Of a stretch of 64,000 nt of DNA, positions 37,937 through 57,502 are shown piece after piece. The DNA comes from Clostridia bacterium (GTDB lineage: Bacteria > Bacillota > Clostridia > Oscillospirales > Acutalibacteraceae), in assembly GCA_017537365.1 (NCBI GenBank), contig JAFYKZ010000022.1, positions 1 through 64,000 of the forward strand. The letters are read 5' to 3'. The translations under genes and the position numbers were made by a program. Within the stretch, counting starts at the first letter, position 1. Every line of letters begins with the position of its first letter. Below the pieces are notes generated by a model. That model saw only the letters and a list, made by a program, of their open reading frames with translations, did no database searches and was not told where the DNA came from.

Positions 37937-38096
37937 TGATTAATAATTTCGGTGTGCCTGCAGCACGAATACAAAAATCGTATTGCAGGGGAGGGGTGCG
38001 GGTGTCTGGCAGACACCTCTGCGAAGCAGAAGCACCGACCGAGGCGGCAGCCGAGACCTCCTCGTTCTCCCGTTTTTTTAAGCCAAAACAAATTTA
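37937..38096. repeat. G+C-rich hairpin block beside the left flanking repeat
   Basis: This 160-base block is clearly richer in G+C than its surroundings. It includes GGTGTCT/AGACACC (around 38001-38017) and TCTGC/GCAGA (38018-38030). It also includes CGAGG/CCTCG-type pairs and an imperfect stem around 37958-37988. Both strands have open frames here but with improbable composition, so I do not call genes. The TCTGCGAAGCAGA hairpin recurs at about 62292. Nothing of note lies in 37852-37936. Confidence 0.55.
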
Positions 38097-38113
38097 TCGG
38101 GAGGGCGCGGAGA

Positions 38114-38196
38114 CCCTCCCCTACAAATTATTATTTATTATAAATTCACATTTGAAAATAAAAACGGGAGGCATAAATGCCTCCCCTACGATTTGT
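38114..38196. repeat. 83-bp direct repeat, left copy
   Basis: Identical over 83 bases to 39080-39162. It contains AAATTATTATTTATTATAAA and a CGGGAGGCATAAATGCCTCCC hairpin. Just outside, both copies have a GGGAGGG/CCCTCCC stem, but the 8-base loop CGCGGAGA here is TCTCCGCG in the right copy, its reverse complement. It ends 10 bases before the XRE gene. Confidence 0.9.
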
Positions 38197-38205
38197 TATA
38201 TATAA

Positions 38206-38436
38206 TTAATCTTCTTCAAGCAGTTTGGACGGTGATACTTTGAGCACCTGCGCAATTTTAAACAATGTTTCCAAAGAAACACCGCGCACTGTACCTGTCC
38301 CCTCAACTTGTCCCACGAAACTTACGCTCTTTCCGATAAGCTCGGCAAAGTATTCCTGAGTATAACCGGCTTTTCTTCGATAATATGCAATCTTTAATCC
38401 AAGAGTAATATATCTTTCTGGAAACTCGGTTTTCAT
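38206..38436 (-). CDS. XRE-family HTH regulator
   Basis: A 76-residue Cro/C1-type HTH protein: L-G-L-K-I-A-Y-Y-R-R-K-A-G-Y-T-Q-E-Y-F-A-E-L-I-G covers the first helices and the recognition helix follows at S-V-S-F-V-G-Q-V-E. It ends after the DNA-binding domain, so it is a bare repressor fold. Start: ATG 38454 is in frame, but AAAGGGG lies 7 bases before ATG 38436. It is divergent from the SLOG-like gene, with 141 bases between start codons, and both lie inside the 83-bp repeats. Confidence 0.85.
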   Translation of the reverse strand: MKTEFPERYITLGLKIAYYRRKAGYTQEYFAELIGKSVSFVGQVEGTGTVRGVSLETLFKIAQVLKVSPSKLLEED

Positions 38437-38577
38437 TTCATCGCCCCTTTTCATTTATAAATATATTTTACTGAAAAATAAGGCAATTTATTATAATATG
38501 TAATTGCAGATATATTTACTTTGAGTGAATAATATTATATAATAAGTAAATAATTATTTACTTATAGGGTGTGGATT

Positions 38578-39057
38578 ATGAATACCAATACTTGTTGCTT
38601 TTTCGGTCATAGGAAAATAAATGAAACTGAAGAATTAAAGTTAACACTTTACGAAATAATAGAAAATTTAATTATAAATGAAAATGTTGATACATTTATG
38701 TTTGGAAGTAAAAGCCGTTTTGACGGCCTTTGTTTAGAAACAGTAACAAAAATAAAAGAAAAATACCCCAACATAAAACGAATTTATGTTAGGGCAGAAT
38801 ATCCTAATATCAGTAAACATTATGAAAATTATCTTTTAAAAAGCTATGAGGAAACCTATTATCCTGAAAAAATTAAAAATTCAGGCAAAGCGGTTTATGT
38901 TGAAAGGAATTTTGAAATGATAAACAAAAGCCAAATTTGTATTATTTATTACGACGAACAATGCGCGCCCAAAAACCGCAAAAGCGGAACAAAAATAGCA
39001 TTTGATTACGCCATAAAACAAGGAAAAAGAATTATAAAATTACCAATATCGTTTTGA
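38578..39057 (+). CDS. SLOG-like (DUF1273/YpsA-type) protein
   Basis: About 159 residues of Rossmann-like fold. C-C-F-F-G-H-R near residue 5, F-M-F-G-S-K-S-R-F-D near 42 and the C-terminal S-G-T-K-I-A-F-D-Y-A-I-K-Q-G-K-R-I-I-K-L match the DUF1273/YpsA branch of the SLOG superfamily. SLOG proteins bind nucleotides or derivatives, and some work in phage defence or stress signalling. Start: an upstream start adds three residues, but TAGGGTG lies before ATG 38578. It is AT-rich compared with its housekeeping neighbours. Function not known. Confidence 0.72.
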   Translation: MNTNTCCFFGHRKINETEELKLTLYEIIENLIINENVDTFMFGSKSRFDGLCLETVTKIKEKYPNIKRIYVRAEYPNISKHYENYLLKSYEETYYPEKIKNSGKAVYVERNFEMINKSQICIIYYDEQCAPKNRKSGTKIAFDYAIKQGKRIIKLPISF

Positions 39058-39079
39058 TTTGTAGGGGAGGGTCTCCGCG

Positions 39080-39162
39080 CCCTCCCCTACAAATTATTAT
39101 TTATTATAAATTCACATTTGAAAATAAAAACGGGAGGCATAAATGCCTCCCCTACGATTTGT
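39080..39162. repeat. 83-bp direct repeat, right copy
   Basis: Right-hand partner of 38114-38196, exactly 966 bases away. It begins 22 bases after the SLOG stop, within the hairpin GTAGGGGAGGG-TCTCCGCG-CCCTCCCCTAC (39061-39090). That hairpin may also end the SLOG transcript, although no T tract follows. Downstream it reaches to 30 bases before the end of pyrI. Confidence 0.9.
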
Positions 39163-55998: not shown

Positions 55999-57452
55999 TG
56001 AAAAAGGTTTACCGCGCCCATCCTTTAATGGTTTTCAATTTTTTAAAACCGTTTTTATTTGTTTTGATTTTTCCTTTCATTACAGCGGCTATCCGTTATT
56101 TTACCGACCGCCATTTAACCTGGCTTTTTGTTTTAGAAATGTTGGCTGTTACGGTGGTTATTTTAACCGCAATAATCCGTTGTATAGCTTTCAGGCTTAT
56201 AATAGAGGATAATCTGCTGACCATAAAAACAGGTGTGCTTTTTATCAGAAAATCAAAAATCAGAATTTCAAGACTTTCTTCTATCCAAACCGAGCAAAAT
56301 CCTTTGGATATGCTATTCAGAGCGGCAACCTGCCGAATTAACACCGAAGCAGGCGTTACCCGAAAATCAGATTTTCAATTCAAGTTAAAGCTTAAAGAGG
56401 CGAGAGAGCTTTTAAGTATTATATATCCCGATAAAACAATTTCAAAGGTTCGTTTTTCGGCATTTAAGGTTGCAATTATGGCGGCGGCAACCTCCTCAGC
56501 GGCAACAGGTATGATTTTATGGGTGCCTACCCTTCGCCAAATCGCAAATCTTGTTGGTGTTGGTATCGACCGTGCTTTGTTTGACGGTATTAACAATATA
56601 ACCAGCCGTTTCCATACCTATTTTCCGCCTATCGTTAATATAGTTTCCTTGGTAATCCTCGCGTCTTACGCGGTTTCGTTCCTTTATTCATTTTTAAAGC
56701 ATATTAATTTTAAGGTTTCTTTCGGCGAAAAGAAGATAGCTGTGCAATCCGGCTTCTTTGTTAGAACTAAGACCTATTTCCGCCGAACAAGAGTTAACAA
56801 TATCAAAATCGAGCAAACACCTCTGCTTAGGCTTCTCCACCGCTATACATTAAAGGTTAGCGTTGGCGGTTTTGATAATTCGAAATCGGTTTCGCAAGTG
56901 GTTGTTCCTTCGGGTAAAAGGCGGAAAATTCAAGAGGATTTTAAAGAATTTTTTCCTTTCTTAACCCATAAAGGAAAAGTCCTGAAACCTGAAAAAAGAC
57001 CGCTAATCCAAAATCTTTTCTTAATGTGGCCCGGCATTTATCTGCTTCTTATGATAGCCGCCGCTTTAATTTCGGCATACCTTTTTCCGAGTTTCAGCCG
57101 ACTCATTCAATTTTTAACAATCGTTTGCTTTGGCTTCCTTATCATATATACCCATACCTGTCTGTTTGAATACAACTGCGGTTCGCTCAAGCTTGGCGAC
57201 TTTGTTTTCGCCCAGAGTAATTATTTTCTTAATACCCGCGAGCTTTATTGCCCTAAGAAGAATATTGGTCAATTAAAGATAACCCGTTTTCCTATGGACC
57301 GAATGCTCGGCATTTGCCGAATAAGGCTTACGGTTTGCAGCGAAAACGCCGATACTATAAGGGTTCGTCATCTTAAATACGACGAAGCCGTCAAAGAGCT
57401 TTCAAACACCTTTGAGTTAGATGAATATTTTAATACAAAAGACGAAAAATAA
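55998..57452 (+). CDS. PH-domain (YdbT-like) membrane protein
   Basis: A 484-residue membrane protein with three PH-domain repeats (DUF304) between helix pairs. The repeated motifs are L-S-S-I-Q-T-E-Q-N-P-L near residue 95, V-N-N-I-K-I-E-Q-T-P-L near 265 and K-N-I-G-Q-L-K-I-T-R-F near 420. It overlaps the preceding gene by one base. The stop is followed after a few bases by a hairpin that also contains a parS-like site. Confidence 0.87.
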   Translation: MKKVYRAHPLMVFNFLKPFLFVLIFPFITAAIRYFTDRHLTWLFVLEMLAVTVVILTAIIRCIAFRLIIEDNLLTIKTGVLFIRKSKIRISRLSSIQTEQNPLDMLFRAATCRINTEAGVTRKSDFQFKLKLKEARELLSIIYPDKTISKVRFSAFKVAIMAAATSSAATGMILWVPTLRQIANLVGVGIDRALFDGINNITSRFHTYFPPIVNIVSLVILASYAVSFLYSFLKHINFKVSFGEKKIAVQSGFFVRTKTYFRRTRVNNIKIEQTPLLRLLHRYTLKVSVGGFDNSKSVSQVVVPSGKRRKIQEDFKEFFPFLTHKGKVLKPEKRPLIQNLFLMWPGIYLLLMIAAALISAYLFPSFSRLIQFLTIVCFGFLIIYTHTCLFEYNCGSLKLGDFVFAQSNYFLNTRELYCPKKNIGQLKITRFPMDRMLGICRIRLTVCSENADTIRVRHLKYDEAVKELSNTFELDEYFNTKDEK

Positions 57453-57480
57453 GAATGTTTCATATGAAACATTCTTATTT
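57448..57480 (+). terminator. Terminator containing a parS-like palindrome
   Basis: A perfect inverted repeat, AAATAAGAATGTTTCAT/ATGAAACATTCTTATTT, runs into a T tract. Its centre (57456-57471) is TGTTTCATATGAAACA, two bases from parS. It begins at the stop codon of the YdbT-like gene. Confidence 0.8.
57456..57471. promoter_or_regulatory. parS-like site 1
   Basis: TGTTTCATATGAAACA, a perfect palindrome differing from the parS consensus TGTTTCACGTGAAACA at two central positions. It lies 585 bases before soj. A ParB bound here would sit inside a transcription terminator. Confidence 0.65.
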
Positions 57481-57502
57481 TTTTACTTAAAGGAGAATTT
57501 TT

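Follow-up and report, generated by a model that had tools for sequence, protein, structure and literature searches.

A divergent regulator-SLOG gene unit with exchanged regulators and predicted operators in Clostridia

Introduction

Why do a small SLOG gene and a divergent XRE regulator lie between two identical 83-bp direct repeats, and do the repeats account for the spread of the pair? The question is raised by a locus in the window, the whole 64,000-nucleotide stretch of DNA analysed here, in which the two genes stand between the repeats and the outer neighbours are holA and pyrI (Table 1). A first-pass annotation had described this arrangement as a cassette that interrupts the holA-pyrI space, is spread by recombination between the repeats, and forms an inducible, perhaps defensive or toxin-like unit. 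The layout itself was confirmed: both genes and both identical repeat copies were located, the repeat having no match in shuffles of the window, as were the two border hairpins, at 38098-38124 with loop CGCGGAGA and at 39061-39090 with loop TCTCCGCG.

Table 1. Features of the locus, in window positions.
Feature	Position	Strand	Basis
REPIN-like pair of inverted REP hairpins, its left arm enlarged by a further hairpin	37985..38128	.	arms and spacer same as in other REPINs of the genome
Left copy of 83-bp direct repeat	38114..38196	+	duplicate of pyrI 3' flank
Intrinsic-terminator-like hairpin, now downstream of XRE gene	38166..38185	-	sequence
Class-A XRE regulator in its 76-aa form (reading frame open from 38454)	38206..38436	-	Pfam HTH_3
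Predicted SLOG promoter TTTACT-N17-TATAAT	38515..38543	+	strongest promoter-like match in the region
Predicted operator, perfect 24-nt palindrome ATAAGTAAATAATTATTTACTTAT	38542..38565	.	class-A k-mer inside class-A gaps
SLOG (YspA/YpsA-related) protein, constant payload	38578..39057	+	PF06908; fold; purifying selection
Putative collapsed REPIN hairpin, terminator-like for SLOG gene	39055..39096	+	sequence
Right copy of 83-bp repeat	39080..39162	+	native pyrI 3' flank; 86% in alignment with G037 pyrI 3' flank
pyrBI intrinsic-terminator-like hairpin	39132..39151	-	conserved in G037

The 83-bp repeat and its hairpins

A search of the genome to which the window belongs (1.72 Mb in 31 contigs), the only means by which REP copies were counted, returned 22 places that match parts of the 83-bp repeat and no other place that matches it whole. 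The other partial matches are pieces of REP/REPIN hairpins and lie away from any SLOG unit. Hairpins of the border type are dispersed over the genome, often as inverted pairs in which TTGTAGGGGAGGGTCTCYGYGCCCTCCCG is followed by a short spacer and then by CGGGAGGGCRCRGAGACCCTCCCCTACAA; two inverted REP hairpins lying between genes, the arrangement characteristic of REPINs, were seen on contigs C13, C19, C26 (two) and C21. The right-hand REP of the REPIN-like element in the window is the left border hairpin of the cassette, and the right border hairpin is probably a REPIN after deletion between its two CCCTCCC repeats, with the loop of the left half remaining. The loops would then be mutually reverse-complementary because the halves of a REPIN are inverted copies, and the local inversion or template switching previously proposed for them is not needed.

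The remainder of the 83 bp comprises AT-rich sequence together with a hairpin, GGGAGGCATTTATGCCTCCC-GTTTTTATTT, that resembles a terminator when read on the minus strand. In the nearest relative, G037, whose pyrI is 94% identical to that of the window, the corresponding stretch lies directly 3' of pyrI; an expanded REPIN stands ahead of it, as do the final codons of a SLOG gene. This 3' region aligns with the left block of the window (37982-38200) at 86.8% over 197 columns and with the right block at 85.7% over 119 columns, which identifies the right copy as native to pyrI and the left copy as a duplicate; since the copies are 100% identical to each other and about 86% identical to G037, the duplication (or gene conversion) is recent. 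Judged from these alignments, the 83-bp repeat is an ordinary, local and recent duplicate of the pyrBI terminator region plus half a REPIN. The predicted terminator in the left copy lies 20-40 nt behind the XRE stop codon, where it can serve the XRE gene.

The SLOG remnant in G037 implies that a SLOG gene adjoined pyrI before the two species parted. No clean empty holA-pyrI site was found, the site at pyrI in G037 being occupied by the SLOG 3' remnant, and holA was not found in that incomplete genome. In none of the 29 other pyrI loci examined does holA follow pyrI within 1.5 kb, so that the cassette interrupts no conserved holA-pyrI space. At the place beside pyrI in G037 where the 5' part of the SLOG unit was lost, a tiny membrane-peptide ORF (MEQETFIIILMVLVIGYILSIKK; L074:1056-1124) resembles a type I toxin-like peptide.

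The SLOG protein

The SLOG protein narrowly exceeds the curated cut-off of the PF06908 YspA SLOG profile (E 1.5e-6; 28.8 bits vs 27.7), and its AlphaFold model shows a confident, Rossmann-like SLOG fold (pLDDT 92.1). The best fold match in the PDB is B. subtilis YpsA (2NX2, E 2.2e-6), at 14% identity in the fold alignment; a molybdenum-cofactor carrier protein is also among the best matches and ThsA stands at rank 10. A sequence search of the PDB returned no relative. Invariant residues of the aligned family include GHR (10-12) and FGS (42-44). The predicted nucleotide-binding motif that was named GxD/E for YpsA (PMC6459960) is altered to GSKSxF(D/N), with the second G absent and D often replaced by N; because that second G is missing, canonical YpsA activity should not be assumed. 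Values of dN/dS between 0.09 and 0.27 in nine pairs indicate purifying selection.

Overexpression of YpsA inhibits division and colony formation in B. subtilis (PMC7376506; PMC6459960), which the protein also protects from oxidative stress (PMC6459960), and SLOG domains of the YpsA clade, which are sensors of ADP-ribose derivatives or have a predicted action on them, have been linked to ADP-ribose signals in conflict systems (PMC9503650). By inspection, gpsB is absent from the SLOG neighbourhoods. Against the PADLOC (2023) models, the SLOG protein matched only ShosA at E 0.0065 and no described defence system, the regulators matched only generic control proteins, and the units showed no stable association with known defence genes.

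Two SLOG copies persist without a regulator, on G000 C29 (the genome of the window) and G037 C4. These are orthologs lacking a divergent regulator (L039 and L041), of which the G037 copy has an in-frame stop; in both, a terminator-like hairpin lies directly upstream of the SLOG start codon and may be an attenuator. At L280 and L283, ribbon-helix-helix (RHH) regulators stand beside SLOG-like proteins from which the GHR and GSKS motifs have been lost and which may be degenerate or re-purposed payloads.

One SLOG family with many regulator classes

Members of the SLOG family were found in 24 of 70 genomes of the genus (E<=1e-30) and in 37 of 398 genomes of the family, representing 25 of 135 genera (E<=1e-35). 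A scan of the genome collection yielded 291 SLOG relatives, of which the best 80 all belong to Clostridia/Oscillospiraceae or Bacillota metagenome-assembled genomes (MAGs), mostly from ruminant gut; all SLOG loci come from MAGs. Of the 114 distinct loci, about eight lack a recognised small DNA-binding regulator in divergent orientation upstream of the SLOG gene, and these are mainly loci that are truncated, degenerate or placed at the end of a contig; all the others have one.

The 104 usable loci that were typed, all from Clostridia/Oscillospiraceae MAGs, carry 12 partner classes of the XRE or RHH type, separated from the SLOG gene by gaps of 74-171 nt. Class A accounts for 32 loci, R (RHH, 66 aa) for 28, C for 9, D2 for 8, D for 7, B for 6, G for 5, E for 4 and F for 2; classes E2, H and I have one locus each. 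Every listed regulator is antisense to the SLOG gene, and none forms a bicistronic operon with it. The class-A regulator of the window (ORF 38206-38454, minus strand) matches HTH_3 at E 6.7e-11, and its relatives start at the internal ATG at 38436, which gives the 76-aa form.

The same SLOG has repeatedly changed partners. Mapped on the SLOG tree, partner type requires at least 51 changes, a rough figure given the weak support of the tree, in which 7 of 101 inner branches are starred; the least possible number is 11 and the mean of shuffled assignments 62.3, with none of 200 shuffles as low. Well-supported SLOG clades also mix classes, as for G000 C21 (A), G037 C16 (C) and G000 C20 (R). Mean regulator identity is 83-94% within classes A, R, B, C, D2 and G, as against 65-74% for their SLOG proteins (class D: 70% and 63%), and SLOG identity is nearly the same within classes (67.1%) as between them (64.9%). 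Concerted evolution of SLOG copies within genomes was considered and rejected: copies cluster in G000 and G037, but not in most other multi-copy genomes.

In G072, G145 and G174 the class-R regulator stands divergently to another SLOG of smaller size (112-116 aa, or about 135 when a GTG start is used), and other XRE proteins are divergent from SLOGs of 29-32% identity in G058 and G051. In the three former genomes, which belong to distant genera (L284, L285 and L287), the RHH regulator is 74-79% identical, suggesting a larger regulator-SLOG network.

Class-specific operators, exchange in place and nested fossils

Each of the main classes has a 9-mer in the regulator-SLOG gap that is absent from the gaps of all other classes: AAAGTAAAT in 30 of 32 class-A gaps (0 of 72 others), GTATATCTA in 20 of 28 class-R gaps (0 of 76), AATAGGATA in 8 of 9 class-C gaps (0 of 95), CATATATGG in 8 of 8 class-D2 gaps (0 of 96), ATATATCGC in 6 of 7 class-D gaps (0 of 97) and GACTATTGA in all 6 class-B gaps (0 of 98). 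Most of these 9-mers form a palindrome or lie within one, and the classes share almost none of them. In the window, the predicted class-A operator overlaps the end of the best promoter-like site and is among only three perfect palindromes of at least 18 nt in the 64 kb. The other two, at 340-373 and 57445-57482, resemble bidirectional terminators.

Exchange of the regulator can be seen at fixed sites with conserved flanks. Loci L144 (class R) and L160 (class C) are alike in the left flank (90.7% over 483 nt), in the SLOG gene (87.3%) and in the right flank (96.0% over 600 nt), whereas the regulator segment has background similarity only (alignment score 83, vs 900 for the same-class pair L160 and L166). 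G000 C20 (class R) and G037 C16 (class C) likewise have different regulators beside a SLOG of 93.7% identity and a right flank of 94.1%, and their left terminator and lysS end are 84% alike. Together with the class-specific 9-mers, these loci document a regulator that moves together with its own predicted operator.

Stacks of two or three regulators, uniform in orientation, were found at 13 loci. In several stacks the displaced regulator's own predicted operator is followed by the first codons of an older SLOG and then by the terminator of the next unit. At L177 the order is D2 operators, 30 codons of SLOG, AAACTCTCTGCCGAATTTTAGCAGAGAGT, a class-D regulator, class-D operators and an intact SLOG; at L186 the nested pattern occurs twice, with the older SLOGs reduced to the start codon and two or three further codons. 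The older SLOG retains 56 codons at L208, 26 at L205, 101 at L190 and 40 at G017 C157, and its 3' part at L188. Intermediate operators are gone from the tight stacks (B-A-R, E-A and R-B-R, with 12-67 nt between regulators), and class-A motifs are missing from the SLOG promoters of all stacks with a displaced A. The stack layout suggests that the newest unit lies nearest the SLOG gene and the older ones outside. Regulator and operator exchange, class specificity of the predicted operators and nested displacement are thus read directly from the compared loci.

Unit ends and genomic context

A left terminator, CTCTSYGC..GCRSAGAG (CTCTCTGC..GCAGAGAG), follows the outermost regulator at a distance of 10-25 nt in 26 of 102 loci, which belong to classes A, B, C, D, D2 and R. 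It has only 29 occurrences in 560 kb of collected sequence, and 5 of its 8 exact sites in the 398 genomes are at units; apart from this terminator, in a quarter of loci, no shared unit ends were found.

Among loci with both flanks, 91 of 96 have different neighbours. As controls, pyrI is followed by 17 contexts in 28 loci and lysS by 15 in 21, and the 91 contexts are weaker as evidence of mobility because gene order at operon ends is fluid in this genus. The unit contains no transposase or integrase gene such as would mark a transposon or an integrative element. An origin in phages or plasmids was rejected, since the viral collection contained no relative and a few phages and plasmids gave only matches of 25-35% identity.

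No empty lysS-copA site was found among 30 lysS loci; part of the clustering of units behind lysS can be explained by integrative elements. Behind lysS in the genome of the window lies a small element of integrative type (L334; G000 C20:39771-43172), with genes named from reading the sequences as a Tn916-type excisionase-like gene, an integrase-like gene and a VbhA-like/Fic pair. On its far side are a copy of the lysS 3' end and then a second SLOG unit, of the RHH class.

Discussion

The reading favoured here, with a probability of about 0.58, is that of a repressor-gated SLOG effector, probably conflict-related, which spreads and is displaced unit by unit. The unit would consist of terminator, regulator, operator/promoter and SLOG gene, the cassette being one copy. 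A small DNA-binding protein, here the class-A XRE protein, would sit on palindromic operators over the divergent promoter and keep SLOG expression low; upon removal or inactivation of the regulator, the SLOG protein would be made and would act on, or sense, a nucleotide-type ligand, most likely with the outcome that the cell is slowed or stopped, or that an invader is interfered with. Units would arrive at new places, sometimes on or inside older units, each bringing its own regulator, operator and SLOG gene. The resident SLOG would be truncated and eventually disappear, and its regulator might survive as a fossil. A new regulator could also come to stand before an old SLOG through recombination between SLOG 5' ends. 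The 83-bp repeat would only provide this XRE gene with a terminator. Repression and the effector role are what we infer from the anatomy of the unit and from its relatives; induction, the activity of the payload, the role in conflict and the means of movement are proposed in the same conditional sense. What holds of the first-pass interpretation is that the pair is a genuine unit found at scattered places, with a repressor-type regulator in divergent orientation, and that it is probably inducible and possibly conflict-related; neither its spread via the repeats nor a local inversion is supported.

An extension of this model that we consider speculative is a self-competing mobile effector system with repressor-defined compatibility groups, resembling prophage immunity reduced to one gene. 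Each repressor class would silence only its own operator, a resident would tolerate newcomers of other classes only, and incoming units would displace residents by nesting into their SLOG gene. Same-class pairs of copies within a genome number 0 of 12 where 2.2 are expected when E and E2 are kept apart (P 0.08), and 1 of 12 when they are lumped (P 0.28); same-class exclusion is therefore not significant and suggestive only, and compatibility groups are not established.

Two alternatives are held to be unlikely. The SLOG protein may be a signal-response protein, either a co-regulator or a housekeeping stress protein that senses or processes a nucleotide derivative, with regulator exchange retuning its expression. 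The ADP-ribose link of YpsA-clade SLOG domains (PMC9503650), the presence of ThsA among the fold matches and the oxidative-stress protection by YpsA (PMC6459960) agree with such a role, but the patchy presence in the genus and the family, the several copies per genome, the decay and the nested displacement are more in keeping with a conflict or selfish unit than with housekeeping. Alternatively, the unit may not be mobile at all: an inherited pair in a setting of fluid gene order, with regulators exchanged only by homologous recombination after ordinary horizontal transfer. This second alternative, on which we place as little weight, would accommodate the fluid gene order, exchange at fixed sites with conserved flanks, the remnant of a SLOG 3' end that G037 has at this pyrI site and the lack of a transposase; it is opposed by the nested units, in which the next unit's terminator is joined to a truncated SLOG, by several copies at unrelated sites in one genome and by patchy presence.

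A toxin-antitoxin pair, in which the small DNA-binding protein is also an antitoxin that neutralises a SLOG toxin by binding, appears improbable. Small helix-turn-helix (HTH) or RHH partners are typical of antitoxins, those found here have weak matches to HipB- and HigA-type antitoxins, and YpsA overexpression is harmful in B. subtilis (PMC7376506). The genes are divergent rather than in one operon, however, and a conserved protein-protein interface is unlikely when one SLOG is paired with ten or more unrelated classes of partner; every partner is accompanied by a predicted operator of its own, as fits transcriptional control, and the two partnerless SLOG copies persist, one with a stop. Finally, the proposal that the cassette spread by recombination between the 83-bp repeats is very improbable and is refuted as a general mechanism, for although this copy stands between perfect direct repeats, the complete repeat was found nowhere else in the genome, is absent from and unlinked to the SLOG units elsewhere, and here represents the native pyrBI terminator flank and its duplicate.

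No prior description of the SLOG/regulator unit was found in the accessible papers and family libraries, a coverage outside which the 2015 SLOG-network review falls. One payload under at least ten unrelated, exchanged repressor-operator switches would constitute a natural experiment in the gain and discard of regulators. The results also point to a small conflict-type unit in gut Clostridia that is not listed in PADLOC 2023, and the predicted operators, swap sites and fossil nested units make the model testable with 1-kb constructs.

Comparison with known systems

The border hairpins share with REPIN/REP elements (PMC3116915) the organisation as short inverted hairpin pairs between genes and differ in being of the GTAGGGGAGGG sequence type. 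With B. subtilis YpsA and its family (PF06908), the SLOG protein has in common the fold, the Pfam match and the N-terminal GHR motif, whereas the GxD/E motif is altered, gpsB is not a neighbour and the divergent regulators are exchangeable. ThsA of Thoeris, a SIR2-SLOG protein, has the same SLOG domain fold; the SLOG described here stands alone, with neither a sirtuin effector domain nor an adjacent TIR partner. Type II toxin-antitoxin modules (HipB, HigA and RHH types) resemble the unit in combining a small autorepressor-like DNA-binding protein with a small payload and in partner swapping, but in the SLOG unit the genes are divergent, the regulator is exchanged with its predicted operator and toxicity of the payload is putative. 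Prophage immunity modules likewise have a divergent repressor, palindromic operators over a promoter and many repressor classes per slot; the SLOG unit differs from them in having no phage genes and no relative in the viral collection, and in placing a single payload gene under this type of control.
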